A stretch of DNA of 64,000 bases from Zingiber officinale (taxonomy: Eukaryota; Streptophyta; Magnoliopsida; Zingiberales; Zingiberaceae), in NCBI RefSeq assembly GCF_018446385.1, contig NC_055991.1, positions 119,145,794-119,209,793 on the forward strand. Direction: 5' to 3'. Every line of letters starts with the position of its first letter. The first letter of the stretch is position 1. A program made the position numbers and the translations under genes. Positions 32,839-59,779 of the stretch are shown here, in pieces. The notes beneath the pieces were generated by a model. The model had not been told where the DNA came from, did no database searches, and saw only the letters and a list, made by a program, of their open reading frames with translations.

Positions 32839-35475
32839 TTATAAATTAGAAAAGACACTAAAAAGGTTGGAAAATATCCTAAAAGAGTAAGATGAGCAAA
32901 ATCTAGGTTTAGGACAACAAGGGTCATCCAAGGGTCATAGAGGTTTGGGATACATACATAAAACCAAAAAGGATGTGCCTTCTTACCATATAGTTCCATA
33001 TAGTTATGGAACTAACCCTAGGCCTAGTGGTCAAATCAAAAATACAAGGAAAGTTATCCCTAGAAGTATTTTTGCAACAACAAACGTGACTAAGACTTCT
33101 AAGAAGTCTAAGAAAGTCACAAAGAATGTCACAAGGGAAGAAATCTCTAGAGTTGACCTAGAAAAGATGACCAAGGACTCTAAGAAGCCTAACAAGGTCA
33201 CTAGGAGGTATCTAGGGAAGTTATCCCTAGTGAATACCTAGAATATCCAAGGAGCACCAATAGGTTTTGGGTTCCTAGGAGCATTTTCTCTACCCTTTAG
33301 ATGGGTTAGAGAGTGTCAACTCCGATTAGAAGGATAGTTAACCCAACTTTGATGAAGTTGACCCTCGGAGAGCATTTTTAAGATTATTGTTAACCTTTGA
33401 AAATGAAAAGGATTATGATTTACTCTTGAAATGGAGTAAAATGTGCCATAGTTTGAGTATTTGGATATAATTTTAATTGGCACAAGAGATCAAGTGTAAA
33501 GAAATGTCAAGTTGGGATTTTGGCATTTTATTGGAAAGTTAAAGGCAAATCTAAGCCTTATTTTAATTTGTTACTCTTTAAAAAGTAAATTTGTGCCAAA
33601 ATTTGAGGAATATGCTTAATTTAAATTGGCACAATGTAGGAAAAGCAAAGGAAATGTCAAAATTGGATTTTGGCGTTTTCTTGGAAAATATTGAGCAATC
33701 TAGGTTTAAACTTTAAGTTAGCTAAGGTTTAAGGATACTTAGATAGTTATTCTAGGTATTTTATTTATGCTAATTTGTCATGCTTTTTTTGCCCATCATA
33801 TGTCATGACATCATATTTATTCTTGCACTCATGCCTTATTATGAAAAATAAAAAATATCATGTCGTGTCATACATACATCATGTAGTCATAGGAAATTTT
33901 CTTTTGAAAATTATTTATCTTTGATGTATGTCATAACGCATCATGCATTATTTTAATTCCTTGTAAACTAAGGACAAATGACATTCATTAACAAGTAACA
34001 TCCTTAGTGGATGTTCCTAACCTCAAAATGCCTAGATAAATATGCATGATCCCTAGATTAGGGCAAAATCAAGGTTTACATCTCACTAAAGAAATATAAG
34101 GTGACTTGTATGTGTTTTAGTGTACATTAGATACAAGTGAGATGTTAGGATGATGAACAAAACTCAAGGTGTTGATTTAGTGCATTCTTTTGAGTTTTAG
34201 GTTCATCAAAATACATAGTTATGTGTTTTTCAATCATTGGGAAAGCTAATGTACAAGTCATGTGCATTGAGCCCAACGAACATGGTTGGATATTGGTTTT
34301 TAAAATAATTTTAAATATATTTTGGAAAACCCTGATGAAGGCTATCATTTGATAGTAATCATCATTGAATAGTTAAACACAAACTTGAAGAAAACACTAA
34401 AATTTTTACAAGTTTTCAAGTTTGTGTCAATCTTTGAAAATAGGAAATATTTTCATAGAAAACTATTTTTCCATGATAGTATATGCCCTAAATAATGTCT
34501 ACAACAATTTTCATGATTTTTAGAATTTTGTAGAAATTTCTAGGGGTTTCTGAAGTTGACTGAAATGAAATTTCAGCAACTTCAGACCTTCAATCGATCA
34601 CTCGATGATTGAAGGGTCTCAATCGATCGGGCGATCGATTGAGAGTGAGCTTCTCGCAAATAGAAGCTCAATGGATCGATCCACCGATCGATCCACGTAG
34701 TCTGAATCGATCAGTGGATCGATTCAGCAGGGTTCAATCGATTGATACCCAACTCCAATCGATTCAAGTGTTGATTTTGGCTGGGAAAGCTTATTTTCAT
34801 CATTTTTGGTCTATGTAGTCATTCCTTATCCCTCAAAACACATTTGTATACATTTAGGGGGAGTTTTCATGATGAAAACAAGGATGGATTGGTTAAGGAA
34901 GACTAAGTAGAGGTTTAGGTTGAGGTTTGGTTTCTATATTGAATTTATAAACCTCAAACTTCTAAGTTTGGATTTTCTATATGTTTAAGGATTCCAAGTC
35001 AATGTTGGTGCAATGACAGAAGTTACGTGCATATCTTTAGGGGGAGTTACTCTTTAAGGACATGAAAATTTATTTTTCATACACCTTAGAAGGTGGTTAA
35101 CTTTCTTTCGTGAAAATGCTCAAGGTTGGGCATTTGAATACAATGGAGAGTGGATATCTTCATTGTTCAAGTGGTAATGCTCAAGGGTGAGCATTAAGGA
35201 AAATGAAAGGTATGGGACTTTCATTATCGTATTGTGAGCAACGAGTGAAGTTGTGAACAACGTTGGGTAACTCTTCAAGGGGAGAGTTTTTTATGTATGC
35301 CAATAGGGGGAGAATGTGTGGTTAAATTAGGCCTTCATTACCTAAAGAGGGAGTTTGCCCTCTAGGAAAGGGGGAGAATGAAGGAAATCATCATTCATAC
35401 ATTGGCATGAAGAAAGTTGAGGCTATGAGATTAGCCTAACTTAAGGGTATTGTCAAACATCAAAAAGGGAGAGAT
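32839..35475 (+). mobile_element. element X, truncated first copy (gag tail and 3' interior)
   Basis: Collinear with 38425-39341 plus 43373-45095 of the second X copy. It holds the C-terminal gag fragment (32945-33297), a long non-coding 3' region, an ATCGATC palindrome cluster (34590-34770), several purine tracts of the AGGGGGAG type and a terminal PPT at about 35465-35475. The gag fragment is out of frame. The site where element V entered the second copy is empty here (33755-33770). Confidence 0.8.
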
Positions 35476-37011
35476 TGTTGGTGCAATATCCCTAGGTCAA
35501 TGTTGACCTGGTTGACTAAGCTTGAGTTGGCTCAAGCTTGAGTCTTGATGTTTGGATTTCGATGTTTAACAATACATTGAGACAATACATGAAGATTGCA
35601 GGTGCAATTGTTCATGTGGGGAGATTGTGAAGGAGAGTCAAGTAGGTCAAGGTTGACTGGATACTTGACTGAAAAATCCTGGTGAGTGAAGCCAGGTGAA
35701 AGTCCTGGTGAGTGAAGCCAGGCAGGTGAAAGACCTAGTGAGTGAAGCTAGGCAGAAAGGAAAGTCCTGGTGAGTGAAGCCAGGCAGATGGAAAGTCCTG
35801 GTGAGTGAAGCTAGGTGAAAGACCTAGTGAGTGAAGCTAGGTGAAAGACCTAGTGAGTGAAGCTAGGCAGAAAGGAAAGTCCTGGTGAGTGAAGCCAGGC
35901 AGATGGGAAGTCCTGGTGAGTGAAGCCAGACATAGGAAAATTCAGGTGGATCAAGTTTGATTGGAGACCTGGTATTGTTAAGTCCAAGTGGGTCAAGGTT
36001 GACCGGACACTTAGCACGAAGATAAAAGTCCAAGTGGGTCAAAGGGATTGACCGGACACTTTGTGAGAGAGTTCTAGCAAGTCAAGGGTGGCCGGATGCT
36101 AGGCATGATGTACCAACAGGTCATGGTTGACCGGATGTTGGTTTAAGGGACTTTGGACTTGGTTTTGGGCAAAAACCATGAGTTGGATCGATCAGCCGAT
36201 CGATTGGTTCATGCCCAATCGATTGGATGAGTCTCCGCGACAAGCCTCCTCCTAATCGATCAGTGGATCGATTGGGAGAAGCTCACGATCGCACAGAATA
36301 GATCTGGATCGATCGGTCGATCGATTCAGAGCCTTCAATCGATCAGCCGATCGATTGGGAGCTGCGATTTCACGCGATAAGCCCTGGATCGATCAGCCAA
36401 TCGATCCAGGCAATTCCCGAGAGCACAGAGGTGCTCTGGATCCATCGACCGATCGATCCAAAGCCTCTCCAATTGATTGGGAGCAATCCAATCGATTGGG
36501 ATTCGACCGTTGGTGCTGGATAAAGACGTTGGCGTTCGATTTCGTCGACAGAACTCTCGGCTTTCTTCTCTAGCGACACCAACGATTCCACAGCTTCTCC
36601 ACAGAGTTCTCACCGCCAGTTCTTGAAGATTCTTGGAGGCTTGTGCTGGTGCACGTCCAAGTCAAGAGGCGAGGAAGAAGTTAGGTTTAGGGTTTGTGCA
36701 AACTTGTAAGATCTTATTATATTTTGTTTCCCTTTTCTTTCTTCTTGTATTGAGAGCTTGTAAGGCTTCTCCGCCTTTGGTAATTACCGAAAAGGAGTGT
36801 TTATATAGTGGAGGATGCGTAAGTGTGTGGATCCTTGGACTAGTCACCTCTTCTTGAGGTGGATACCAAGTAAATCCTTAGAGTTAGCATTGTTGTGTTG
36901 TTTCTTGTATTTTCCGTTGCTATCATCTTGAAGAAACAAGCAACGACGAGCACGAGATCGCACCGAGCTATTCATCCCCCCCCCCCTCTAGCTATATTTT
37001 TGGTCCCAACA
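35476..37011 (+). mobile_element. element X, central LTR (shared by two tandem copies)
   Basis: Starts TGTTGGTGCAATATCCC and ends GGTCCCAACA. It is followed at 37014 by TGGTATCAGAGC (tRNA-iMet PBS). Layout: a start module with GTTGACCTGGTTGAC, a short-hairpin array (35680-35930), five long hairpins (35941-36142), a palindrome cluster with ATCGATC cores (36185-36500), and a possible TATA box, TTATATAGTG (36801). Compared with the right LTR (45096-46673) it has many small differences. Confidence 0.85.
35680..36142. repeat. hairpin arrays in the X central LTR
   Basis: Short units of CCTGG-TGAGTGAAG-CCAGG alternate with CCTAG-TGAGTGAAG-CTAGG, in which both stem sides change together. Long units lie at about 35941-35972, 35984-36014, 36030-36063, 36073-36103 and 36112-36142. 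Each has a 7-bp outer stem around a GGTCAA...TTGACC-GGA core (GATCA...TGATT in the first). Some stems here carry single mismatches that the right LTR copy does not have. Confidence 0.8.
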
Positions 37012-37134
37012 AGTGGTATCAGAGCGAGGTTGCTCTTCACCGGAATCATCGCCGGAAGGGGCAAAAAGCTAGAGGGTGGAGAAGTTGGAGCAATTTTACA
37101 AGTCGAAGACTTCATTCAAGAAGCTCAACTTCAA

Positions 37135-38901
37135 ATGGAATTCCAAGATGGACTTGGATTCGATACAAAGGTGCATCCACCATTCACAATGATGAGCTTC
37201 GATCTTTGGAAATCAAGGATCAAAAATTTCTTGATGGTGAAGATAGAGCAATGGTTTGCTCTCATGGAAGGCTTTGAAGCTCCAACAAGTTCAAAGGGCA
37301 AAGTTCTAAAGAGAAGCAAGTGAAACCAAGAACAAATTCAAAGGAGTGAGGCAAATGATAAAGTGACCAAGCTTTTGGTCAATCTATTACCTAGCCACAT
37401 TTTGGAGCAAATTGGAGAATTAAGGATGCCAAGGAGTTTTGGAGCAAATTGGCAATGATTCATGAGATCCCCTCCACTGTACCAATCCAAGAAGAATTAA
37501 ATGAGGGTGATTCATTGAATCAAGATCAAAAAGAAGAAGAAGAGGACTCCGAGGTTGAGAGGTGCTCAATATCGGAAGAAGAAGTCCTAGAAGCTTCATC
37601 CTCAAAGGAGTGCAACCAAAAGAGCAAGGAAGGAGCATATTCCTTGTTTCATGTACAAGAGGATGAAGAGGAAGATGAAGTCTCCACCTCTAGGATTGAG
37701 GGGGAGAGACCTTTGTTGACATCGGATCAAGAAGAAGGAGAAGCTTCTGCATCCGGGTCAAATGGAGAAGAATATGTTGCATCCTCCAAAAATCAAGAAA
37801 CATCAAATGGAGGAGCAAGTGTCATCCCTACACATGAAGGTAAAAATGGTTCAATTAAGAATAAAAATCATATTATATGTTTTGAGTGTAGGGAACATGG
37901 GTACTACAAAAGCAAATGCCCTAAATTGGCTAAGAAAAAGGGTCAAGTAACACCAAAGGGTAAGGAGAAACCCAAGGAGACCGCTCCCGGAACAAAGAAG
38001 AGCAAGGAGCACATTGTATGTTTTTCTTACAATCAAAAGGGACACTATCGAAGTCAATGTTCTAAGGGGAAGAAAGCGGTCAAGGCTCAAGGAGGAAGCA
38101 CAATTCAAGGGGGAACCTCCAAGATAAAACGCAAGGTATCATTTGTTGAGCCTACCCCGTTAAATAATGGTAAAAAGCATGTCAGTTATAATTTATATCA
38201 TTTTAATGCTATTTACCATAAAAATAGGAAGCATGATAGCATTAAGGAAAAACATGTAGCTCTTCGTGCTAAAACTACCACACCTAGGTCTAGGAAGGTA
38301 GATAAAAATTTAGGCAAGAATTCTAAGGATTTTAGTTACAATGCTAAAAATAAAATTGCTCAAGGATTAAATGAAAAAACCAAAAACTAAGGATTTAATG
38401 AGAGAAAATCAAGTCTTGAAGTCAAGATTTGATAAATTAGAAAAGATACTAAAAAGGTTAGAAAATATCCTAAAAGGGCAAAATGAGCAAAATCTAAGTT
38501 TAGGACAACAAGGGTCATCCAAGGGTCATAGAGGTTTGGGATACAAACCTAAAACCAAAAAGGATGTGTCTTCTTACCATAGAGTTCCATATAGTTATGG
38601 AACTAACCCTAGCCCTAGTGGTCAAGTCAAAAATACAAGGGAAGTTATCCCTAGAAGTATTTTTGCAACAACAAGCATGACTAAGACTTCTAAGAAGTCT
38701 AAGAAAGTCACAAAGAATGTCACAAGGGAAGAAATCTCTAGAGTTGACCTAGAAAAGATGACCAAGGATTCTAAGAAGCCTAACAAGGTCACTAGGAAGG
38801 TATCTAGGAAAGTTATCCCTAGTGAATACCTAGAACATCCAAGGAGCACCAATAGATTTTGGGTTCCTAGGAACATTTTCTCTACCCCTTATATGGGTTA
38901 G
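37135..38901 (+). pseudogene. broken gag of element X
   Basis: Starts at ATG 37135, 121 bp after the PBS, and breaks at a stop at 37321. It resumes in other frames at 37449-38390 and 38371-38901. The middle carries acidic Glu/Ser-rich sequence, then two retroviral-type zinc knuckles that are both damaged: CFECREHGYYKSKC (Tyr where His is needed) and CFSYNQKGHYRSQC (Tyr where the second Cys is needed). The C-terminal part is a coiled-coil-like segment (LEKILKRLENILKGQNEQN), then a Lys-rich region and a VIPSEYL...NRFWVPRNIFSTP ending shared with element Y. No protease, integrase or reverse transcriptase follows. Gag-only LTR elements are known as TR-GAG elements. Confidence 0.8.
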
Positions 38902-39346
38902 AGAGTGTCAACTCCGATTAGAATGGTAGTTAACCTAACTTTGATGAAGTTGACCCTCGGAGAGCATTTTCAAGGTTATTGTTAACCTTTGAAAATGAAA
39001 AGGATTATGATTTACTCTTGAAATGAAGTAAAATGTGCCATAGTTTGAGTATTTGGATATAATTTTAATTGGCACAAGAGATCAAGTGTAAAGAAATGTC
39101 AAGTTGAGATTTTGGCATTTTATTGGGAAGTTAAAGGCAAATCTAAGCCTTATTTTAATTTGTTACTCTTTAAAAGAGTAAATTTGTGCCAAAATTTGAG
39201 GAATATGCTTAATTTAAATTGGAACAATGTAGGAAAAGCAAAGGAAATGTCAAAATTGGGTTTTGGCATTTTCTTGGGAAATATTGGGCAATCTAGGTTT
39301 AAACCTTAAGTTAGCTAAGGTTTAAGCATACTTAGATAGTTATTCT
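38902..39346. other. element X interior left of the V insertion
   Basis: Non-coding 3' interior, matching 33300-33767 of the first copy. AT-rich. Ends at the ATTCT target site. Confidence 0.8.
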
Positions 39347-40263
39347 TGTAGGTCCCTTTGGAGGCCGGCAAGAGGGGAGGGGTGAATTGCCCTATAAAAA
39401 ATAAACCAAAAACTTTTCTCGGATATTCAACTAATTTAAAAGAACTTGTAATTAAAAAACTAGAGACTAAATAAACAGAAATCAGACACAGAGGATTTAC
39501 TTGGTTTGCAATCAGGGGATTGCTAATCCAAGGAAAATAAGCACACTATCTGACGATCTCCTTTGGGCGGAGTAGCCTCTTTACAGCGTTGAGAGCACAG
39601 ACAGAAAAGTAGAAATGAAAGAACTGATTACAAGTTGTTGTTCTGAATTAATTGATTAGCTTCTGGACCAAGGCTATATTTATAGCCTTGGTCGGGGCGC
39701 CTGGAAGAGTTCCGGGCGCCCTGGGGGGGATAAATTTTATCCCCCAACGTTCAGATCGAGTCAAACCTCGATCCTGGTCAAAATCCACTTTCGGGCGCCC
39801 AAAAGAGTTTCGAGCGCCCCGGGCTGCTCCGGGCGCCCCGGGCTGCTCCGGGCGCCCCGGAGCCCAAAGTCAACAACGTTGACTTTTTTGTCTCCGGTTC
39901 AGCTCATCTCGGTCCGGGTCTTGTTCGCTCCGGCTCCGCTAGCTTGGGTGATTTCGGCCATCTGGAATAGGGCTCACCCGAACCCATGTTCCGGCCTTTT
40001 CCTCGAGCAGTCTTCCTTCCTGGTTTCTCGTCCCTCGAACGCTGCGCACGTTCTTCTCGTCCACCGGTGTACTCCGCGGTCACCTCGTCTCTCGGATGCA
40101 CCGAGCCTGTCGGCTCTCTCCCCGTGCCATCCTTCTCGCTAGCCGCGTCTTCCGCTCAACTTGCTGTGTTCCTAAGTTCCTGCACACTTAGACACAAGGG
40201 TTAGACAGTGCAGGACCTAACTTAGCTTGTTTGATCACATCAAAACACCTTAGGGTTTCAATA

Positions 40264-41286
40264 ATCTCCCCCTTTTTGATGTGAGCAACCCAAGTTAAGT
40301 TAGGAAAAATATATGCAATAAAACCAACATATTTGCAATTAATTTGCAAATAAGTCTAAAGATTTTTCAATTAAAAATATATTACCTCCCCCTACATGTA
40401 ATATCCTTCTCCCCCTTTGATCACATAAAAAATAGGGGTTCTTAAACAAGTCTAAGGTAAAAGAAAATTCTACGGCAAACTTAAAAACAATTTTAAGTCA
40501 ATTTTTTTTTAAAAAAAAATTCTAAGTCAATTTTTTTTTAAATGTAAGGAAATATTATCAAATATTAAAAAAAATTCTTTGTCAAAATTTTTTTAAAAAA
40601 ATCTTAAGGCAATTTTTTTAAAAAAAAATCTAAGATAACTTTTATGAAAAAAAATTTCTAAGTCAATTTTCATAAAAAAATTTCTAAGGTAATTTTCAAA
40701 AAAAAAAATTCTAAGTAAAAAATTTTTTAAATATTTTCTAACACAAATTGAATAACTCTTTTAAAGCATCAAGTAAATTAAATTAATGCTTTTTCAGTTA
40801 GTCAATTAAACTTTTCATTTCAATACTTGGCTTCCAGGTCGTGGCGAGGCACTAGGCCTTCTTGGTTATTGGAGCAACAACCACTTCCTTAGACAAAGCC
40901 TCATAAAGAAATTAGTTGTTTAATTTCCTTGCTGAAAATGCTAAGTCTAATTTTAATTTTAAATTAAACAGGTTTTTGGAACCAGTAGAGGTTCCTACCT
41001 ACAGGGTTAACCAAGTATTTCCTAGGTACATAGATTTTTTATATATTTCTAATTTGACTTTGATGAAATCTATAATACCAATTTAAACCTCTATAATTTC
41101 TAAAAGTAGAAATATTTGAACCATTAGATTTTTTCTATTTTTCTATTTCTTCTTTTAGTTTTTCATTTTCAATTTTCAATTTATCAAAATCCTCTATAAG
41201 ACATGATTTTGCCAAAATTCTTTTTGTTTCTAGAATTTTATTTTCTAATTTGGTATTTTTATTTTCTAATTTATACATGGATTTTG
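40264..41286 (-). other. non-coding 3' interior of element V
   Basis: Between the gag stop and the 3' LTR. Seen on plus, 40480-40740 is a run of TTCTAAGTCAATTTTTTTT-like repeats. CCCCCT tracts near 40270, 40388 and 40412 are purine tracts on the element strand. No reading frame. Confidence 0.7.
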
Positions 41287-42411
41287 TCATTGCCTTAATA
41301 CCAAAGTAAGTTCATCAGGGGGTAAGAGGCATACCTCACTTACCATATCAGACTTGAAGCCTGAATCTCCCCCTGCTTCGCTACTTCCATCTGAGCTCGC
41401 TCCCCCTTCATTGATGTTGGGTTCTGATGTACTTTGTCCTTCGTAGCTTGCCATCAATGCTATCCCGACATATTTTTGAATCTCGGACTCAAATGATGAA
41501 GTGTCATCCCAAGTGGCTTTTAGGTTCCTGTGTTTCTTGGGTGTCTTTATTTTGTCCTTCTTTAGTTCTGGCCAATCCTCTCTTAAGTGTCCTTCCTTTT
41601 GACACTGGTAGCAACACACTTTTCTTCTATTTCTTGGATTCTTTTTATTCTGTATTTCTTTAAATTTATTAGATCTTAAAAACTTTTTAAAGTTTCTTAC
41701 CATATATGCTTCTTGGTCTTCTTCGGAGTCTGACTCGGGTTCATCCTTCTTGGTTGCGTTCAGCGCCATTATCCGACTTGAGTCTTTTGTTGTAGCTGCA
41801 CACCTGGTTTCATGTAACTCAAGAGTAGAAAACAACTCTTCTAAAGTACTTACCTCCAGGTCTTTTGAAATATAGTAGGCGTCGACGATTGATGTCCACT
41901 CCGGAGTTCTGGGAAATGCGTTGAGTGCGTAGCGTATGTTGTCTCGATTTGTTACCGTTTCTCCGAGGTTCTCGAGATCAGTAATCAATTCTTTTACCTT
42001 TGCATGTAGATTGGCTACCTTTTCACCTTTTTCCAGATGAATGTTCATCAACTTGTTCTGGAGGATGTCTCTTCTAGCGAGCTTCGCTTCAGACGTGCCT
42101 TCGTGGAGTTCCAAGAACTTCTCCCAGAGTTCTTTAGCAGATGAATAGCTTCTGATGCGGTTGACCTCTTGAGGCGGTAACACGCTCAGCAGGTGATATT
42201 CCGCATGGCTGTTTGCTACAGATTCATTCTGCTTCTTCTTTGTCCAATTGCTCTTTTTTTTTTCTTCTCCATCTTGATTCGTCGGAGCTAAAAAATCATA
42301 CTTCATTATAAATCGAATTTTGAAATCAGTTCTTAGGAATACCTCCATACGACGCTTCCGGTCTGCGAAGTTCCCCTCGAATTTTGGTGGGACGATGCTT
42401 GGTCCGGCCAT
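41287..42411 (-). CDS. gag polyprotein of element V (UBN2-type)
   Basis: An uninterrupted ORF of 374 aa starting at ATG 42411; the upstream GTG at 42465 lies in the PBS region and is not a likely start. The N-terminus (KFEGNFADRKRRMEVFL) and the following SSAKELWEKFLELHEG segment, with KVANLHAKVKELITDLENLG, are typical of copia-type gag (UBN2 family), which packages the RNA in virus-like particles. A Glu/Asp-rich linker follows, then one zinc knuckle, CYQCQKEGHLREDW, where Trp replaces the last Cys. RNA binding through that knuckle is probably impaired. The protein ends in a Gly/Ser-rich acidic tail (GASSDGSSEAGGDSG). No enzymatic domains. Confidence 0.85.
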   Translation of the reverse strand: MAGPSIVPPKFEGNFADRKRRMEVFLRTDFKIRFIMKYDFLAPTNQDGEEKKKSNWTKKKQNESVANSHAEYHLLSVLPPQEVNRIRSYSSAKELWEKFLELHEGTSEAKLARRDILQNKLMNIHLEKGEKVANLHAKVKELITDLENLGETVTNRDNIRYALNAFPRTPEWTSIVDAYYISKDLEVSTLEELFSTLELHETRCAATTKDSSRIMALNATKKDEPESDSEEDQEAYMVRNFKKFLRSNKFKEIQNKKNPRNRRKVCCYQCQKEGHLREDWPELKKDKIKTPKKHRNLKATWDDTSSFESEIQKYVGIALMASYEGQSTSEPNINEGGASSDGSSEAGGDSGFKSDMVSEVCLLPPDELTLVLRQ

Positions 42412-43372
42412 CTTGTTGCTTCGATCGGCGGTTAGTCCTCCTGAAGCGCCTTGCTCTGATACCACTTGTAGGTCCCTTTGGAGGCCGGCAAGAGGGGAGG
42501 GGTGAATTGCCCTACAAAAAATAAACCAAAAACCTTTCTCGGATATTCAACTAATTTAAAAGAACTTGTAATTAAAAAAGCAGAAACTAAATAAACAGAA
42601 ATCAGACACAGAGGATTTACTTGGTTTGCAATTAGGGGATTGCTAATCCAAGGAAAATAAGTGCACTATCTGACGATCTCCTTTGGGCGGAGTAGCCTCT
42701 TTACAGCGTTGAGAGCACAGACAAAAAAGTAGAAATGAAAGAACTGATTATAAGTTGTTGTTCTGAATTAATTGATTAGCTTCTGGACCAAGGCTATATT
42801 TATAGCCTTGGTCGGGGCGCCTGGAAGAGTTCCGGGCGCCCTGGGGGGGATAAATTTTATCCCCCAACATTCGGATCGAGTCAAACCTCGATCTTGGTCA
42901 AAATCCACTTTCGGGCGCCCGGAAGGGTTTCGGGCGCCCCGGGCTGCTCCGGGCACCCCGGAGCCCAAAGTCAACAACGTTGACTTTTTCGTCTCCGGTT
43001 CAGCTCGTCTCGGTCCGGGTCTTGTTCGCTCTGGTTCCGCTAGCTTGGGTGATTTCGGCCATCCGGAATAGGGTTCACCCGAACCCATGTTCCGGCCTTT
43101 TCCTCGAGCAGTCTTCCTTCCCGGTTTCTCATCCCTCGAACGTCGCGCATGTTCTTCTCGTCCACCAGTGTACTCTTCCGCGGTCACCTGGTCACTCGGA
43201 AGCACCGAGCCCGTCAGCTCTCTCCCCGTGCCATCCTTCTCGCTAGCCGCGTCTTCCGCTCGACTTCCTGTGTTCCTAAGTTCCTGCATACTTAGACACA
43301 AGGGTTAGACAACGCAGGACCTAACTTAGCTTGTTTGATCACATCAAAACACCTTGGGGTTCCAACAATTCT

Positions 43373-45095
43373 AGATATTTTATTTATGCTAATTTGTCAT
43401 GTTTTGTTTGCCCATCATATGTCATGACATCATATTTATTCTTACACTCATCCCTTATTATGAAAAACAAAAAATATCATGTCGTGTCATACATACATCA
43501 TGTAGTCATAGGAAATTTTCTTTTGAAAATTATTTATCTTTGATGTATGTCATAACGCATCATGCATTATTTTAATTCCTTGCAAACTAAGGACAAATAA
43601 CATTCATTAACAAGTAACATCCTTAGTGGATGTTCCTAACCTCAAAATGCCTAGATAGATATGCATGATCCCTAGATTAGGGTAAAACCAAGGTTTACAT
43701 CTCACTAAAGAACTATAAGGTGACTTGTATGTGTTTTAGTGCACATTAGATACAAGTGAGATGTTAGGAAGATGAACAAAACTCAAGGTGTTGATTTAGC
43801 GCATTCTTTTGAGTTTTAGGTTCATCAAAACACATAGTTATGTGTTTTCCATTCATTGGAAAATCTAATGTACAAGTCATGTGCATTAAGCCCAACGAAC
43901 ATGGTTGGATATTGGTTTTTAAAATAATTTTAAATATATTTTGAAAAACCTTGATGAAGGCTATCTTTTGATAGTAATCATCATTGAATAGTTAAACACA
44001 AACTTGAAGAAAACACTAAAGTTTTTACAAGTTTTCATGTTTGTGTCAATCTTTGAAAATAGGAAGTATTTTCATAGAAAACTATTTTTCCATGATAGTA
44101 TATGCCATAAATAATGTCTACAACGATTTTCATGATTTTTAGAATTTTCTAGAATTCTCTAGGGGTTTCTAAAGTTGACTGAAATGAAATTTCAGCAACT
44201 TCAGACCTTCAATCGATCACCCGATCGATTGAAGGGTCTCAATCGATCGGGCGATCGATTGAGAGTGAGCTTCTCTTGAGCAGAAGCTCATTGGATCGAT
44301 CCACCGATCAATCCACGCAGTCTGAATCGATCAGTGGATCGATTCAGCAGGGTTCAATCGATTGGAACCCAACTCCAATCGATTCAATTGTTGATTTTAG
44401 CTGTGAAAGCTTATTTTCAGCATTTTTGGTCTATGTAGACATTCCTTATCCCTCAAAACACATTTCTATATATTTAGGGGGAGTTTTCATGATGAAAACA
44501 AGGATGGATTGGTTAAGGAAGACTAAGTAGAGGTTTAGGTTGAGGTTTGGTTTCTATATTGAATTTATAACCTCAAAACTTCTAAGTTTGGGTTTCCTAT
44601 ATGTTTAAGGATTCCAAGTCAATGTTGGTGCAACGACAGAAGTTACGTGCATATCTTTAGGGGGAGTTACTCTTTAAGGACATGAAAATTTATTTTTCAT
44701 ACACCTTGGAAGGTGGTTAACTTTCTTTCGTGAAAATGCTCAAGGTTGGGCATTTGAATACAATGGAGAGTGGATATCTTCATTGTTCAAGTGGTAATGC
44801 TCAAAGGTGAGCATTAAGGAAAATGAAAGGTATGAGACTTTCATTATCGTATTGTGAGCAACTAGTGAAGTTGTGAACAACGTTGGGTAACTCTTCAAGG
44901 GGAGAGTTTTTGATGTATGCCAATAGGGGGAGAATGTGTGGTTAAGTTAGGCCTTCATTACCTAAAGAGGGAGTTTGCCCTCTAGGAAAGGGGGAGAATG
45001 AAGGAAACCATCATTCATACATTGGCATGAAGAAAGTTGAGGCTATGAGATTAGCCTAACTTAAGGGTATTGTCAAACATCAAAAAGGAGGAGAT
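43373..45095 (+). other. element X interior right of the V insertion
   Basis: Non-coding and collinear with 33771-35475. It includes the ATCGATC palindrome cluster (about 44205-44390), the repeated words AGGGGGAGTT and GGTGAGCATTAAGG, and a terminal PPT (CAAAAAGGAGGAGATTG, 45081 onward). Confidence 0.85.
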
Positions 45096-46673
45096 TGTTG
45101 GTGCAATATCCCTAGGTCAAGGTTGGCCTGGTTGACTAAGCTTGAGTTGGCTCAAGCTTGAGTCTTGATGTTTGGATTTCGATGTTTAATAATACATTGA
45201 GACAATACATGAAGATTGCAGGTGCAATTGTTCATGTGGGGAGATTGTGAAGGAGAGTCAGGTAGGTCAAGGTTGACTGGATACTTGACTGGAAAATCCT
45301 GGTGAGTGAAGCCAGGTGAAAGTCCTGGTGAGTGAAGCCAGACAGGTGAAAGACCTGGTGAATGAAGCTAGGTAGAAAGGAAAGTCCTGGTGAGTGAAGC
45401 CAGACAGATGGAAAGTCCTGGTGAGTGAAGTTCACTCACGCAGATGGAAAGTCCTGGTGAGTGAAGGTAGGTGAAAGACCTAGTGAGTGAATTTAGGTGA
45501 AAGACCTAGTGAGTGAAGCTAGGCAGAAAGGAAAGTCCTGGTGAGTGAAGCCAGGCAGATGAGAAATCCTGGTGAGTGAAGCCAGACATAGGAAAATCCA
45601 GGTGGATCAAGTTTGATCGGACACCTGGTATTGTTAAGTCCAAGTGGGTCAAGGTTGACCGGACACTTAGCACGAAGATAAAAGTCCAAGTGGGTCAAAG
45701 GGATTGACCGGACACTTGGTGAGAGAGTTCTAGCAGGTCAAGGGTGGTCGGATGCTAGACATGATGTACCAACATGTCATGGTTGACCGGATATTGGTTT
45801 AAGGGACTTTGGACTTGGTTTTGGGTAAAAACCATGAGCTGGATCGATCAGCCGATCGATTGGTTCATGCCCAATCGATCGGCTAATCGATTGGGTGAGT
45901 GTCCGCGACAAGCCTCCTCCTAATCGATCAGTGGATCGATTGGGAGAAGCTCACGATCGCACAGAATAGCTCTAGATCGATTGGCCGATCGATTCAGAGC
46001 CTTTAATCGATCAGCCGATCGATTGGGAGCTGCGATTTCGCGTAATAAGCCCTGGATCGATCGGCCGATCGATCCAGGCAATTCCCAAGAGCACAGAGGC
46101 GCTCTGGATCGATCGGCCGATCGATCCAAAGCCTCCCTAATCGATTGGGAGCAATCCAATCGATTGGGATTCGACCGTTGGCACTGGATAAAGGCGTTGG
46201 CGTGCGATTTCGTCGACAGAACTCTCGGCTTTCTTCTCTAGCGACACCAACGATTCGACAGCTTCTCCACAAAGTTCTCACCGTTAGTTCTTGAAGATTC
46301 TTGGAGGCTTGTGCTGGTGCACGTCCAAGTCAAGAGGCGAGGAAGAAGTTAGGTTTAGGGTTTGTGCAAACTTGTAAGATCTTATTGTATTTTGTTTCCC
46401 TTTGCTTTCTTCTTGTACTGAGAGCTTGTAAGGCTTCTTCGCCTTTGGTAGTTACCGAAAAGGAGTGTTTACATAGTGGAGGGTGCGTGAGTGTATGGAT
46501 CCTTGGACTAGTCACCTCTTCTTGAGGTGGATACCAAGTAAATCCTTAGAGTTAGTGTTGTTGTGTTTTTCTTGTATTTTCCGCTGCTATCATCTTGAAG
46601 AAACAAGCAACGACGAGCACGAGATCGCGCCGAGCTATTCACCCCCCCTCTAACTACATTTTCGGTCCCAACA
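45096..46673 (+). mobile_element. element X, right (3') LTR
   Basis: Starts TGTTGGTGCAATATCCC and ends GGTCCCAACA. It is followed by TCCGG of element G; no matching TCCGG lies at the left end, because that end is deleted. It contains the short hairpin array (45295-45590), five long hairpins, best preserved in this copy (45598-45628, 45640-45670, 45686-45719, 45729-45759, 45768-45798), and the palindrome cluster (45840-46175). A 19-base perfect palindrome at 45421-45439 is unique to this copy. Confidence 0.87.
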
Positions 46674-50573: not shown

Positions 50574-52295
50574 TGTTGATACAGTCTGACCTGGATGTTA
50601 TTTTGATGTTGACACTGATTTAAGTTTGAATCAGATATTAAATTAACTCAGATTAATTACTAATCAAGGTTGACTTGGTTAACCTGATTGACCTGATTGG
50701 GAAAAGTCCAAGCGAGGAGCTTGGCACGGGAAAGTCCTGGTGAGTGAAGCCAGGCAGTGGGAAAGTCCTAACTGGGATGTTAGGCAGTTGGAAAGTCCTG
50801 GTGAGTGAAGCCAGGCAATTGGAAAGTCCTGGTGAGTGAAACCAGGCAATTGGGAAGTCCAAGTGTGGAAGCTTGGCATGTATGGTCGGAGAGGGTTCGG
50901 TAGCACGCTCTCTGGACCGTCAGGGGTGAGGGCAGCAAGCTTGGAAGCTTGACTCGAGACTCACTTTGGATCGGTCCGCATCGATCCATGGCACGGTGAT
51001 CGATGCATGGGCCGATCCACTGATCGATCTGCGATCGACCGCATCGAGGCAACACTCGATAACATCGAGTGTATCTTGATCGGTCCGGGACCGATCGTAA
51101 CAAACAGCACACCGTGGGTATATGATCGGTCCGGGACCGATCGAGATAACACTCGATGCACATCGAGGATCTTGATCGGTCCGGGACCGATCGATGATCC
51201 CGATGGCGGTGGATATTGATCGGTCTTACGGACCGATCCGGTGAGTCTGATCGGTCCACGCACCGATCGCCGCGCGATTCGCGTGAAGGGTGGATCGGTC
51301 TTGGGACCGATCGAGACAAGCACTGATCGGTCACCGACCGATCGATGACGATAAATAGAGCGTGGATCGGTCTGCGACCGATCCACGATGGCTTGTTTTG
51401 CATGCGCTTTCTCTTATTGTTTCTGATTCGCAATTGCTTTTACCTATTTCGTTTCTAACCATCTGCTGTAAGCTTTCTCGAAGTTACAGGTTACAGATTA
51501 CTTGATGTTGGGTGAATTCAAATTAAGGATCATTAGTAGAAGGCGACGAAAAAGCTTTTGCTGTGTCTCGCTGCGGACAAACCAGTTTTGGTAGCAACGT
51601 CTCGTTTGCGATCTGCTGGCAGCCGTTTGGTCGAAATCAGCTTGACTTGTGGTGATATGTTCAAGCTCAGAGGTACCAGTGGAAACGAGGATGCCATTGG
51701 TGGGAGCTGAGACAATCAGACAAGGAAGAAGCGTGATTGGCGACGTCGTGGACGGTTGCAGGGATTTGCAGGGATTTGCTGTAGGTTTGGCAGAGATCCG
51801 TTACAGAGCAGAGAGGCATATGAAGGTGGAGAGGAGAGGCTCTCGTGATAATGCTTTTTGTGCTCTTGCTGTGAAAAACACTGTGGAGAAAAACTCTCTG
51901 GAAGATTGAAGCAGTGTGCTTGTTCTTCGCTGATTGTGGCTGTGAGCTTCCTTTGATCATTTCACTTGAGCCACTACTGTAAGTCTTGTGCTTAATTTCT
52001 TACTGCTGTTAAAGACTTTGTGGAGAGGTTACTCCACCGAGAAGGAGAATCCTTTAGCCGGATAGCTTCCGGGGTGTGATCTACCGAAAGATCAAGAGGA
52101 TTCGTCCACCTTACGGACACGCCGAGGAGTAGGGGCAAGTTATCCCCGAACCTCGTAAATCTCTGAGTTAGTGTGCTGTGCTTTCTTGTTTTAGTTTTCT
52201 AATTCCGCTGTGCTAACAAAGTTCTTGAAGAAATTTGTGTTTAGTGTTTTTCAAAGAGGCTATTCACCCCCCTCTAGCCATCTAAGGTCCCAACA
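50574..52295 (+). mobile_element. solo LTR of element Z
   Basis: Starts TGTTGATACAGTCTGACC and ends GGTCCCAACA, with target duplication TAGGG on both sides (50569-50573 and 52296-52300). No PBS or interior follows, so it is a solo LTR left by LTR-LTR recombination. Contents: a short-hairpin array (50706-50876), a palindrome cluster with GATCGGTC...GACCGATC (50960-51385), a TATA box (GATAAATAGAG, about 51349-51359), and a leader (about 52020-52160) alike to that of Y. Confidence 0.93.
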
Positions 52296-53132
52296 TAGGG
52301 AATGGTTGTCGTTTGAGCAACATGCGTCAAGGTTTCACCCCGCTTGAAGGAAGGCGCGAGCTGGTCTTGGTTGGGGACCACATCGTAGAGGAAACGAATC
52401 GGGAGGCAGTGTTCGTGCGGCGCCTTTTTCGGCTGATCAGCGGCTCCTTGAAGGAAGTCGATTCTGAAGCCCCCTCGACTGAAATCACCGAAAGTCATTC
52501 TAGTGGAGGATTCACTTCACCAGTAGTTGTCCGGCTGGCCACTCCTTCGCTTCCTTGGGCTGGCATTCCCATGCTCTCTCCAAGCAGATCTTTGTTGGAG
52601 CCGATCGGCTGCAAACTGGGGTTCTCCACCTCGGCTACGGTCGCATGTTGATCTCTGCGTCCGCAAGTTTGCTCTTGCTAGCCAGACACGCCCTTAGCAT
52701 GATATGAGCTGCAAAAAAAGAGAAAACATTAGTTAGATTCAATGAAGGATAAGAAGGAGAGCATACCTAGGCTGGACAGGAACTTTGTGCGGATTGGACT
52801 CAAGCCGAACACATAGAGGACTCCCTCATGCAGCAACTTATGGATATGATACTTCTGACCGGCCAAGTGTGAAGTGTTGGTGCAACCTTAGGTCAAGGTT
52901 GACCTGGTTGACCCGACTCGAGGTGACGTGACTCGAGTTGTATTTTGATGTTTGACTTGGGAAGATTGTCGGTGCAACCTTAGGTCAAGGTTGACCTAGT
53001 TGAGTTGCATGTTGATGTTTGACACTCGTGAGAGAGTTATATTCTTGATATGAGACAAGAATAGATATTTGGGAGATTATTCGTGCAACCGTAGGTCAAG
53101 GTTGACCTGGTTGACCTGATTCGGGAAAAAGT

Positions 53133-53526
53133 CCAAGTATGGAGACTTGGCACGGAGAAGTCCAAGCAGGGAGCTTGGCACGCGAAAAGTCCAAGTGTGG
53201 AGACTTGGCACGGGAAAAGTCCAAGTATGGAGACTTGGCACTAGAAAAGTCCAAGTATGGAGACTTGGCACGGAGAAGTCCAAGTAGGGAGCTTGGCACG
53301 TGGGAAAGTCCTAACTGGGATGTTAGGCAGTGTGGAAAGTCTTGGTGAGAGAAGCCAGGCAAGGGAAAATCCAGATGGATCAAGGATGATCGGACATCTG
53401 GTGTTGGAAAGACCAAGTGGGTCAAAGGGATTGACCGGACACTTGGTAGGGAGTCTTAGCAGGTCAAGGGAGTGACCAGATGCTAAGCATGAGATACCAA
53501 TAGGTCAAGGTTGACCGGATATTAGT
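53133..53526. repeat. short and long hairpin arrays in the Y 5' LTR
   Basis: Short units: CCAAGT-ATGGAG-ACTTGG (several), CCAAGC-AGGGA-GCTTGG and CCTAAC-TGGGAT-GTTAGG, then CTTGG...CCAGG. Long units: 53371-53401 (CCAGATG/CATCTGG), 53413-53446 (CCAAGTG/CACTTGG), 53455-53487 (CTTAGCA/TGCTAAG), 53496-53526 (ACCAATA/TATTAGT). The inner core is GGTCAA...TTGACC followed by GGA or AGA. The same units are in the 3' LTR at 58573-58728. Confidence 0.85.
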
Positions 53527-53571
53527 GTGGAAGGCGTGGGAATTGGTTTGGACAAAAACCAAGAGCTGGAT

Positions 53572-53940
53572 CGATCAGTGGATCGATCCAGGTCATCTGA
53601 TCGGTCTGGAGACCGATCAGAAAGCGATCAGTGTGCCTCTGTGAGCTTACTGATCGGTCTGGGGACCGATCAGCATGAATCCTGATCGGTCCCCGGGACC
53701 GATCAGGGTACGCACAGAAAGTTGGGCGCTTTTCTGTAGAACAGCTGGATCGGTCTGGAGACCGATCAGCACCATGCTGATCGGTCTCCACGACCGATCA
53801 GAGACGCAGCCACCTCTCTGTAAGAGAGGTGGGATCGGTCCGGGGACCGATCAGACTGGGGCCTGATCGGTCTCTCGGATCGATCAGGATAGCTCCAGAC
53901 CGATCAGGGCGATGCCTGATCGGTCTGGCCCTAACCGTTG
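53572..53940. repeat. GATCGGTC palindrome cluster in the Y 5' LTR
   Basis: Successive inverted repeats of the form CTGATCGGTC-n-GACCGATCAG with loops of 3-5 bases, led by an 11-bp stem CTGGATCGATC/GATCGATCCAG. About eight copies here, and one more pair in the 3' LTR. The 5' LTR has one arm mutated (GATCGATCAGG where the 3' LTR has GACCGATCAGG). Confidence 0.85.
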
Positions 53941-54597
53941 AGAGACAACGGCTAGGCTATTTTTGGCTCCTGTGTTTCTGGCCTTTTGGCTTGCAGGTTC
54001 GCAGGTTATATAAGGGTTCGAGCGACTCTACAGACCATAACTCTCCGAACCTTCTTCTTCTTTCTGCTGCTGAGTTCTTGAAGCGTTGAAGCTTCGCGTG
54101 AGCTTCCCTTTGGCTGGGTCACCTGCTGTTGTAGGCGCTTGGAGCTGCTGCTTCTTCCAGTCGAAGAGAAGGCAAGCAAGAGTTTTCTTACTGTTGTATT
54201 TCTTGCTGTCTTTCCTTGTATTTCTGTACTCTCCTTACTTGCTGTTGCAAGAGTGTGTTGTGGCGAGGTTTCTCCACCCAGAAGGAGCTTGTATTAGCCG
54301 GTTCTCCGGGGACTCATCCACCGACGGATTGACTGGACTCGTCCACCTTACGGACACACCGAGGAGTAGGAGCCCTAATCTCCGAACCTCGTTACATCCT
54401 TGTGTTAAGGTTTGGTTTTCTTCTCTTTTGGTTATTTGTATTTTCCGCTGCGCTAACACGTTTTGTAGAAAGATACGACAATTTGGGGCGGCTATTCACA
54501 CCCCCCCTCTCTAGCCGAGTACGAACGATCCCAACAAGTGGTATCAGAGCTAGGCCGCTCTTTGACGGATCAACACCCGGGGGAGCACAAGCTAGAG

Positions 54598-55908
54598 ATG
54601 GATCAATTCGGAGAAGACATCACCATTCCACCCTTCTACAACGACAACTTCGCATATTGGAAGGTAAGGATGATGTATTTTCTTAGGACTAATATGTGGA
54701 ACTGGTTTTGTGTATAAGAAGGGTTTACTCCTCCAATGGATAAAGAAGGAGAGCCTCTAGAGAAGAACAAGTGGACGAAGGAACAAGTCCACCAATCCAC
54801 GATCAACAATGAGGTAACTAAAACAATTGAATTTTCATTACCTACTAATGTTTTGTGTAAGATAGGTAAATACAACAATGCCAAGGAGTTGTGGGATAAC
54901 TTGGCCAAGTACCATGAGGAGAGCTCCACTTCAAGCCATGAAGAGGAGCCTAGTGAGCCAAGTAGCTCACATCATGGAGGAAGCGAATTGGGAGTTGAGG
55001 GCTACTCAACATCCAAGGAAGAAGAGGAGGAGAGCTCTTGTTCAAGATCGGAGCAAGAAGAGGCATCTACCTCCGGAAGGGATGAAGAAGAAAGCTCATC
55101 TACATCCACAACCCTAGGTAACTCAAACACTGTGATTTCAAGCAAATTACACATAATGTGTTTTGAGTGTAGGAAGTTTGGGCACTACAAGAGTAAGTGT
55201 CCAAAGAGGGTTAGAAAGACTCCACCGGCACCAAAGGTCAAGGAAGCCGGAGTCTCGACATGCAAGAGCAAGAAGCACGTGATGTGCTTCCAATGCAAGC
55301 AACGGGGACACTATAGCAGTCAATGTCCAAGGGGGAGGCAACCTCACAAGGACAAGAGACCAAACACATGTAAAGGGGGAGCTAAGGCAAACCCTAAGGT
55401 AACATTTAAAGCTCATTCTTGCAATTCTAGTAGGATGCATGCTAGTAGTCTTATTGCCATTGTCAATAATGATAAGCATGTTAACACTAGAAATCGATAC
55501 ATGTGCTTAGGAGCCAAGCATGTTAGCCTAGATAAGAACAATTCTAGAAATGCTAACCCTAGAATTAACTCATCTAAGGCTAAGGAAAATCTAGATAGAA
55601 ATCCCAAATCATCTAGACACATGCCTAGGAATACCTCAAAGAAAAATGATAAATCAAAACTTGAGGTATTAGAGAAAGAAAATCAAGTCTTGAGGTCAAG
55701 ACTTGACTCTCTAGAAAAGGCTCTTAAGGATTTGACTCTAGGGTCTAGGGGTCAAAAACCCAAATCCAAGGACAAGAAAGGTTTGGGTCACAAACCTAAG
55801 TCCCAATTGGTCAAGCCCACTTATCATAATGTTTCATTCGATTATGGAACAAAACCTAGGGCTAGGAAGACCATTACCAAGGGCACAAGGAAGTCACCCT
55901 ATAGTTGA
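54598..55908 (+). pseudogene. gag of element Y with one premature stop
   Basis: From ATG 54598 the frame runs to 55908 with a single in-frame TAA at 54715-54717 (codon 40). The N-terminus has the FAYWKVRMMYFLRT block typical of copia-type gag, then KELWDNLAKYHE, a Ser/Glu-rich acidic linker, and two intact CCHC zinc knuckles: CFECRKFGHYKSKC and CFQCKQRGHYSSQC. A basic region and a Leu-zipper-like segment (LEKENQVLRSRLDSLEKALK) follow. The conserved C-terminal motif (VIPSEYLVNPMSSNRYWVPR) is read in another frame at about 55970-56056, so a frameshift near 55890 is also likely. No pol. Apart from the two breaks the gene is well preserved. Confidence 0.85.
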
Positions 55909-58067: not shown

Positions 58068-59779
58068 TGTTGGTGCAACCTTAGGTCAAGGTTGACCTGG
58101 TTGACCCGGTTGACCCGACTCGAGGTGACGTGACTCGAGTTGTATTTTGATGTTTGACATGGGAAGATTGTCGGTGCAACCTTAGGTCAAGGTTGACCTA
58201 GTTGAGTTGCATGTTGATGTTTGACACTCGTGAGAGAGTTCTATTCTTGATATGAGACAAGAATAGATGTTTGGGAGATTATTGGTGCAACCATAGGTCA
58301 AGGTTGACCTGGTTGACCTGATTCGGGAAAAAGTCCAAGTATGGAGACTTGGCACGGAGAAGTCCAAGCAGGGAGCTTGGCACGCGAAAAGTCCAAGTGT
58401 GGAGACTTGGCACGGGAAAAGTCCAAGTATGGAGACTTGGCACTGGAAAAGTCCAAGTATGGAGACTTGGCACGGAGAAGTCCAAGCAGGGAGCTTGGCA
58501 CGTGGGAAAGACCTAACTGGGATGTTAGGCAGTGTGGAAAGTCCTGGTGAGAGAAGCCAGGCAAGGGAAAATCCAGATGGATCAAGGATGATCGGACATC
58601 TGGTGTTGGAAAGACCAAGTGGGTCAAAGGGATTGACCGGACACTTGGTAGGGAGTCTTAGCAGGTCAAGGGAGTGACCAGATGCTAAGCATGAGATACC
58701 AATAGGTCAAGGTTGACCGGATATTGGTGGGGAAGGCGTGGGAATTGGTTTGGACAAAAACCAAGAGCTGGATCGATCAGTGGATCGATCCAGGTCATCT
58801 GATCGGTCTGGAGACCGATCAGAAAGCGATCAGTGTGCCTCTGTGAGCTTACTGATCGGTCTGGGGACCGATCAGCATAAATCCTGATCGGTCCCCGGGA
58901 CCGATCAGGGTACGCACAGAAAGTTGGGTGCTTTTCTGTAGAACAGCTGGATCGGTCTGGAGACCGATCAGCACCATGCTGATCGGTCTGGAGACCGATC
59001 AGCACCATGCTGATCGGTCTCCACGACCGATCAGAGACGCAGCCACCTCTCTGTAAGAGAGGTGGGATCGGTCCGGGGACCGATCAGACTGGGGCCTGAT
59101 CGGTCTCTCGGACCGATCAGGATAGCTCCAGACCGATCAGGGCGATGCCTGATCGGTCTGGCCCTAGCCGTTGAGAGACAACGGCTAGGCTATTTTTGGC
59201 TCCTGTGTTTCTGGCCTTTTGGCTTGCAGGTTCGCAGGTTATATAAGGGTTCGAGCGACTCTACAGACCATAACTCTCCGAACCTTCTTCTTCTTTCTGC
59301 TGCTGAGCTCTGCTGAGTTCTTGAAGCGTTGAAGCTTCGCGTGAGCTTCCCTTTGGCTGGGTCACCTGCTGTTGTAGGCGCTTGGAGCTGCTGCTTCTTC
59401 CAGTTGAAGAGAAGGCAAGCAAGAGTTTTCTTACTGTTGTATTTCTTGCTGTCTTTCCTTGTATTTCTGTACTCTCCTTACTTGCTGTTGCAAGAGTGTG
59501 TTGTGGCGAGGTTTCTCCACCCAGAAGGAGCTTGTATTAGCCGGTTCTCCGGGGACTCATCCACCGACGGATTGACTGGACTCGTCCACCTTACGGACAC
59601 ACCGAGGAGTAGGAGCCCTAATCTCCGAACCTCGTTACATCCTTGTGTTAAGGTTTGGTTTTCTTCTCTTTCGTTTCTTTGTATTTTCCGCTGCGCTAAC
59701 ACGTTTTGTAGAAAGATACGACAATTTGGGGCGGCTATTCACACCCCCCCTCTCTAGCCGAGTACTAACGATCCCAACA
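58068..59779 (+). mobile_element. element Y, 3' LTR
   Basis: Starts TGTTGGTGCAACC and ends ATCCCAACA, followed by the right target site TGAAG (59780-59784). It is 50 bp longer than the 5' LTR, mainly through one extra palindrome pair (about 58970-59010) and a repeated GCTCTGCTGA. Otherwise the two LTRs differ at only scattered bases, so the insertion is fairly recent. Confidence 0.93.

Follow-up and report, generated by a model that had tools for sequence, protein, structure and literature searches.

Hairpin ladders with covarying arms in the U3 region of Sirevirus-type LTRs of Zingiber officinale

The LTRs of two retrotransposons of Sirevirus type, X and Y, and a solo LTR of the same type, Z, which lie in one 64,000-nucleotide stretch of the Zingiber officinale genome (contig NC_055991.1; hereafter the window), carry a ladder of short and long hairpins, and in related LTRs of the assembly the outer stems of the long hairpins, taken together, keep their pairing above phylogenetic expectation while their sequence changes. 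From the sequence, we read the ladder as part of a Sirevirus U3 palindrome array upstream of the promoter, in which W-boxes would recruit WRKY factors and outer stems would be kept for folding of a single strand, and we give this overall reading a probability of roughly one half. Sirevirus palindromes have so far been treated as cis-regulatory boxes and as templates for small RNAs; arms that go on pairing through sequence change suggest a role for the fold as such or for some process of arm-to-arm copying. As one assembly contains thousands of copies, data could distinguish selection from template switching, and the ladder bears on why plant retrotransposons retain structures that possibly invite silencing.

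Ladders in the LTRs of the window

The hairpins were first described in the right (3') LTR of X, which runs from TGTTGG to CCCAACA at 45096-46673 (window positions, plus strand here and below unless stated). Five long hairpins were counted in its U3 between 45598 and 45798: hairpin 1 (45598-45628, CCAGGTG/CACCTGG), an extra hairpin (45640-45670), hairpin 2 (45686-45719, CCAAGTG/CACTTGG), hairpin 3 (45729-45759, TCTAGCA/TGCTAGA) and hairpin 4 (45768-45798). In each, the outer stem is 7 bp long, the inner stem is of the GGTCA/TGACC or GATCA/TGATC kind, and the 3' side bears a bulge of 3 nt. The five long hairpins of the X central LTR (35476-37011, with a PPT-like tract before it and a PBS after it) lie at 35942-36142, and neither copy has a perfect inner stem in hairpin 3 (A/C and T.G in the central LTR, G.T and T.G in the right one). 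The preliminary description was right that X and Y share the order of their hairpins, four X hairpins being matched in the same sequence in both Y LTRs, and that X has one extra unit, as 45640-45670 has no Y counterpart. It also gave GGA as the bulge throughout; a 3-nt bulge is there, but hairpin 3 of Y has AGA, and among 122 distinct contexts from 40 further LTRs the bulge is GGA in 96, AGA in 25 and TGA in 1.

This block is just the 3' end of an array that starts about 160-270 nt into the LTR. In the right LTR of X it is preceded by a leading long hairpin (45258-45288) and by a short-hairpin array (45298-45586) of CCTGG/CCAGG and CCTAG/CTAGG units with a loop that is mostly GAGTGAA; in the table of these short units, three mis-registered rows were taken out, four re-registered ones were put in and an odd unit at 45417 was left out. 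Ladders hold about 14-15 units in each X LTR, 12 in each Y LTR and 6 in Z. Those of Y lie at 53133-53526 in the 5' LTR (52875-54536) and at 58335-58728 in the 3' LTR (58068-59779), the latter with long hairpins at 58573, 58615, 58657 and 58698, and that of Z (50574-52295, TSD TAGGG) consists of short units only (50708-50876). Short stems fall into the classes CCTGG/CCAGG, CCTAG/CTAGG, CCAAG/CTTGG and CCTAA/TTAGG, and long units have an added inner stem of the GGTCA/TGACC kind with a GGA or AGA bulge on the 3' side. After the ladder, X, Y and Z all have a second array, made of CGATC-type palindromes, which in the right LTR of X are of the CGATCGGCCGATCG type (45850-46165) and in the 3' LTR of Y run GATCGGTC...GACCGATC (58768-59161). 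A TATATAA box lies downstream of both arrays in Y (59240-59246 in the 3' LTR, 54007 in the 5' LTR), so that the order there is ladder, palindromes, TATATAA and the Y block is indeed upstream of the TATA box, as first described. Neither TATATAA nor TATAAA occurs on the plus strand of the X LTRs. In some ladders a further long palindrome, GTCGGAGAGGGCTCGGTAGCTCGTTCTCCGGAC or a close variant, is repeated (L230, L251, L254 and L258 among the further LTRs; near 50885-50920 in the window).

Pairing within the Y and Z ladders is nearly complete over the first five stem positions, all of which are paired in 12 of 12 units of the Y 3' LTR, 6 of 6 in Z and 10 of 12 in the Y 5' LTR. The Y 3' array holds 11 perfect 6-bp hairpins against 1.33 in shuffled sequence (maximum 4), and a chance origin of the Y ladder is rejected because the array lies so far above its shuffles. 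On perfect stems alone the excess of the whole X arrays is modest (5 perfect 6-bp hairpins versus 1.7-2.2 shuffled, with maxima of 5 and 6), and that of the 201-nt block by itself is borderline: its perfect 7-bp hairpins number 3, where 300 shuffles average 0.30 and reach 3 at most, and a control stretch of X linker (44000-44180) also has 3 (mean 0.73, maximum 3). RNA folding z scores were -4.9 (plus strand) and -9.4 (minus strand) for the Y 3' ladder and -2.2 and -5.9 for the block. Measured against shuffles, the minus strand is the better-folding one as RNA and, by a smaller margin, as DNA, and we attribute its better folding to purine-rich spacers as a putative cause. Taken as a whole, the hairpins first described are partly confirmed. 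Elsewhere in the window, overlapping long inverted repeats with arms of 106-165 nt lie at 4358-5997, apparently in no relation to the LTRs.

Pairing of the arms among related LTRs

Changes on both arms had been proposed for several hairpins from the comparison of X with Y. At hairpin 1 the proposal holds: pair 5 is G-C in X and A-T in Y, in both copies of each family, and all 30 Y loci fetched have CCAGATG/CATCTGG. At hairpin 3, said to read TCTAGCA in X and CTTAGCA in Y, the difference at pair 2 (C-G versus T-A) is present in both copies, but pair 1 is C-G in 17 of 22 X-family copies; the right LTR of X is thus in a minority state there, and of the two pairs claimed to differ from Y, only one does. 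The paired change in the last hairpin stands, pair 6 being T-A in Y and in the X-family copies C-G in 15, C/A in 5, the right LTR of X included, and T-A in 2, with at least two origins of T-A in the X tree. These 22 copies comprise both X LTRs of the window and 20 of the 38 full-length places outside it among the 40 best-scored. Lone mismatches are not confined to single copies, as had been supposed, since the C/A mismatch at pair 2 of the extra hairpin is common to both window X copies; that pair is C-G in 18 of the 22. The majority state across the 22 is paired in every outer stem, and 1,220 of 1,320 cells are paired in the X-family copies, which are more divergent. All ten stem differences between two LTRs of one family are one-sided (nine between the X central and right LTRs, one between the Y 5' and 3' LTRs).

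Further LTRs, like all relatives used here, came from the one assembly (3,090,333,446 bases in 211 contigs), in which the exact PPT plus AT/TG LTR-start string AGGGGGAGATTGTTGGTGCAA has 7,534 + 7,687 = 15,221 matches and its reversed control 0. The test set consisted of the first 60 of 100 listed LTR starts, consecutive on C1 between 0.2 and 12.1 Mb; picked by the exact start signal and from one contig end, they are biased toward intact copies and are not a random genome sample. By pattern and minimum pairing, at least one short unit was found in 58 of the 60 and at least one long unit in 53, a count in which having a unit already presupposes some pairing, as 6 short and 13 long units were dropped for low pairing; L239 and L244 had neither kind. 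With long units in 53 of 60 further LTRs, the stems are conserved in further members. Perfect 6-bp hairpins averaged 9.6 per LTR against 2.3 shuffled in the first 40 of the 60, to which this shuffle test was applied, and as each of the 40 exceeded its shuffle mean, a chance origin was rejected for them. In 37 of these 40 there were at least three short units, 4 short units with fewer than three Watson-Crick pairs having been left out.

The long units were then compared on trees. A total of 172 distinct ones, found blind to the outer stem and none of them dropped in the tree tests, were set against a null in which substitutions were re-dealt on the tree with the number and kind of changes per column kept; the units are short, the unit trees, with 29 or 47 columns, are poorly resolved, and the analysis uses parsimony. 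Over the seven outer pairs, the Watson-Crick fraction was 0.885 against a null of 0.428 (sd 0.071), which 0 of 200 nulls reached. When the register was slid by 1-3 columns there was no excess, with 28 to 196 of the 200 nulls reaching the observed value. Over nine pairs (seven outer, two inner), the fraction was 0.886 versus 0.517 on the whole-unit tree and 0.459 on the non-stem tree (0 of 300 nulls in each case). Thus, Watson-Crick pairing of the pooled stems lies far above the tree-aware null, in the true register only. The covariation test that the preliminary description proposed, run here on the 60 LTRs, is clear for pooled pairing and weak for single pairs: E values against the tree null were 0.05 to 4.7 for outer pairs and 0.97 for inner pair 2, with none for inner pair 1. 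In APC-corrected association over 351 column pairs, ranks 1-6 were all stem pairs, as were 8 of the top 12. Because the search pattern sets the inner TCA/TGA columns, their invariance is no evidence.

Pair types vary along the stem. In 163 distinct contexts, tabulated with 13 units of fewer than four Watson-Crick pairs left out, the commonest states were CG 138 and TA 14 at outer pair 2, AT 108, TA 30 and CG 17 at pair 3, AT 117 and GC 38 at pair 4, GC 102 and AT 57 at pair 5, TA 112 and CG 42 at pair 6, AT 85 and GC 62 at pair 7, and GC 128, AT 27 and G.T 8 at inner pair 2. Changes on the same branch fell on the nine partner pairs 46 times on the non-stem tree (5.1 each, versus 1.72 for non-partners, maximum 5) and 16 times on the whole-unit tree (1.8 each, versus 0.49, maximum 3). 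On the non-stem tree the outer pairs underwent 98 breaks (86 one-sided, 12 two-sided), 25 restorations and 28 two-sided changes from one Watson-Crick pair to another, of which 25 were transitions and 3 transversions.

Selection on a sense RNA is expected to let G.U outnumber A.C among non-standard pairs. Counted over the first 40 LTRs, the ratio was 62:22 (the last such tally omits 7 long contexts that have fewer than four Watson-Crick pairs), and over all 60 combined it was 87:43, but the excess was not replicated in the 20 held-out LTRs (28:21, p 0.39). X-family copies have 52 G.U against 32 A.C cells, or 25:32 without the 27 cells of two wobble pairs in hairpin 3 that occur throughout the family, and X-type short units have A.C 13 and G.T 6 at pair 4. 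A sense-strand preference, which the 40 LTRs had suggested, is no more than tentative after the held-out set. Of the earlier suggestion of a selected RNA or cruciform, what stands is the pooled pairing above the tree null; the strand test failed to replicate, and template switching predicts similar changes.

What may keep the arms paired

We read the block as the 3' end of a palindrome array upstream of the promoter, a ladder of short and long units each of which is predicted to fold on one strand. The inner dyad consists of two W-box cores, the WRKY core being TTGAC(T/C) in the consulted part of PMC6671987. TTGACY occurs on average 12.5 times per LTR start against 1.5 in shuffled sequence, with 59 of 60 LTRs above the shuffle mean, an excess that may stem simply from the repetition of one unit. 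According to the part consulted of PMC12786077, the element EVADE/ATCOPIA93 is activated by WRKY binding to W-boxes in its LTR, and the GGTCAA...TTGACC dyads of the ladder would likewise serve, as paired W-boxes, to bring WRKY factors to the promoter of the LTR. The outer stems would be retained since the single-stranded form must fold, be it the sense RNA, with U3 at its 3' end, or the cDNA strand. Such an array would be dosage-like, in that units come and go yet every unit has to pair, and single paired steps such as C-G to T-A by way of one-sided intermediates, which are still present in many copies, would simply reflect compensatory evolution of the usual kind in active lineages. A further step, which we put forward tentatively, is that the ladder may work as a folded single-stranded module, made up of hairpins that can replace one another and located in the cDNA or at the 3' end of the genomic RNA. 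A factor of the element or of the host would recognize the bulged, two-stage stem of each hairpin, and compensatory evolution would maintain the module in thousands of copies even as its units drift in number and sequence. If true, this would amount to a modular structural code within a retrotransposon U3.

The explanation that fares best next to these is that template switching during reverse transcription or replication copies arm onto arm and lets units swap within the array, which would leave stems perfect in the course of copying, with no selection on the fold. Template switching can both create and repair stems and so leave changes that look compensatory (PMC8794818, consulted in part). 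Y-family copies that share an identical long block differ in their short arrays (L166, L184), and this turnover of the ladder indicates a region that is readily rearranged; the predominance of transitions among the two-sided events (25 of 28) also fits. Against such copying, one-sided intermediates are common and paired changes mostly concern a single base pair, and the divergent X copies retain one-sided mismatches that were left unrepaired, while the Y 3' and Z ladders are fully paired over the first five positions. We consider template switching a less likely but serious alternative account of the ladder.

Rather unlikely, in our view, is that the units act at the DNA level only, as double-stranded dyads upstream of the promoter (W-box pairs among them) to which dimeric factors bind, with folding incidental. 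The array does sit between the LTR start and the TATA box in Y, and in U3 W-box cores reach 15 per kb in the right LTR of X and 20 per kb in the 3' LTR of Y, compared with about 1 per kb elsewhere in those LTRs and in window positions 1-32000. Bousios et al. 2010 (PMC2829016, consulted in part) suggest regulatory sites for Sirevirus palindromes, and the failed replication of the strand bias of wobble pairs is also compatible with binding of a duplex. However, the outer arms vary yet stay complementary, which a sequence-specific site does not require, and the bulge is asymmetric. Outer arms that hold their pairing and not their sequence, for which a DNA site has no need, would favor a folded single strand for the outer stems alongside WRKY sites in the duplex. 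Deamination of methylated cytosines in symmetric contexts on both arms, turning C-G into T-A by chance, would also yield transitions, and pair 6 of X hairpin 4, where T-A arose repeatedly among counts too few for an association, could be so explained, but it is very improbable as a general account, since pairing stands at 0.885 against 0.43 in a tree null whose columns undergo as many changes, of the same kinds, as the real ones, and A-T and G-C states are family-wide, as at hairpin 1 of Y, with paired A-T states fixed in families of near-identical copies.

Carriers, copies and known Sirevirus palindromes

By their junctions alone, X and Y carry signals of Sirevirus-type (Ty1/copia) elements as set out by Bousios et al. 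2010 (PMC2829016, consulted in part). The CA/AGTGG junction and the 9-bp PBS TATCAGAGC, compared with that source, follow the X central LTR (37012-37025) and the Y 5' LTR, whose TSD is TGAAG. Multiple PPTs are present, with 4, 4 and 3 exact AGGGGGAG octamers upstream of the X central, X right and Y 3' LTRs, respectively; the four before the right LTR of X lie within 44476-44996 (at 44476, 44659, 44925 and 44989). The terminal octamer, which in Sireviruses sits exactly 10 bp ahead of the LTR, is one base off in 3 of 3 window 3' junctions, as in the AGGAGGAG variant followed by AT at 45086-45095, and the AT/TG attachment site is present in all three. By-eye comparison places C-runs, in the manner of the C-rich integrase signal, near the ends of the two X LTRs, the two Y LTRs and Z. 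A Y ORF at 54718-55908 has only a CCHC zinc knuckle above the Pfam cut-off.

Among 1,938 and 2,250 candidates, the 40 best-scored Y and the 40 best-scored Z copies are 99-100% identical. Several Z places come in pairs with a spacing of 9.4-9.8 kb, and some Y places with one of 5.1-5.3 kb; near-identity and spacing together point to a long and a short element that amplified recently. Three short patterns sought in viral and other genome contigs gave 0 of 134 loci with two or more inner motifs among the matches listed. Eleven rows with a loose PPT were taken as chance because the records are bacterial or viral.

The preliminary description had not recognized its elements as Sirevirus-like, a group in which palindromic LTR repeats at this place are already described (PMC2829016 and PMC10760457, each consulted in part). 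RM boxes of Sireviruses, as the consulted part of Bousios et al. 2010 (PMC2829016) presents them, are palindromes of high copy number that begin 200-400 nt into the LTR, within U3 and ahead of the TATA box; the Y LTRs of the window have such tandem palindromes in U3 upstream of the TATA box. Downstream of the ladder, Y and Z have CGGTC...GACCG palindromes and X has CGG-CCG ones. The ladder units differ from RM boxes: they generally have no CGG-CCG core, which X, Y and Z carry in their downstream arrays and which CCCGG/CCGGG approaches in only a few ladder units; they comprise several stem classes and contain loops or a GGA/AGA bulge; and they show covariation between the outer arms. A second array of such a kind is not described for RM boxes in the consulted part of PMC2829016. 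Clusters of LTR palindromes in the cis-region of maize Sireviruses resemble the arrays as well; they are predicted to be strongly structured and show small RNAs in excess, but their consensus is CACCGGACNNNGTCCGGTG, and paired changes of the arms go unmentioned in the consulted part of that source (PMC10760457). Copia element EVADE/ATCOPIA93 shares TTGACY-core WRKY sites in its LTR; the consulted part of PMC12786077 mentions no hairpin dyads or ladders, and the W-boxes of the present ladder are predicted from sequence. Among the titles and abstracts listed, none concerned compensatory pairing in Sirevirus LTRs, and a search for ginger with SIRE and LTR-RT gave no match. Palindromic boxes in Sirevirus U3, and hairpins with small RNAs in maize, are known from the sources consulted in part; a distinct upstream ladder, mostly lacking the CGG-CCG core and having bulged two-stage stems and covarying arms, is not described in those portions of the Sirevirus literature.

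Several smaller observations concern the carriers. In a Z-family copy (L201, positions 1-933), an open frame of at least 310 aa lies upstream of the LTR array, at the position of Sirevirus envelope-like genes, and has no Pfam match. The LTR-start-like sequence GTTGGTGCAA occurs in the linker upstream of the 3' LTRs (35004, 44624 and 57421). Y-type LTRs have extra copies of the PPT/LTR-start junction in U3, for example GGGAAGATTGTCGGTGCAACC and GGGAGATTATTGGTGCAACC, which look like duplications of the junction; they lie at 52963-53003, 53072-53115, 58165-58205 and 58274-58317 in the window and are also found in L225, L228, L229, L231 and L233. X (32841-46673) is a tandem, in which duplicated 3' internal sequence flanks an LTR that is preceded by a PPT-like tract and followed by a PBS. 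A second element is seemingly inserted in X, with LTR-like repeats at 39345-40265 and 42465-43369 and a copia gag ORF (PF14223) on the minus strand at 41287-42546.
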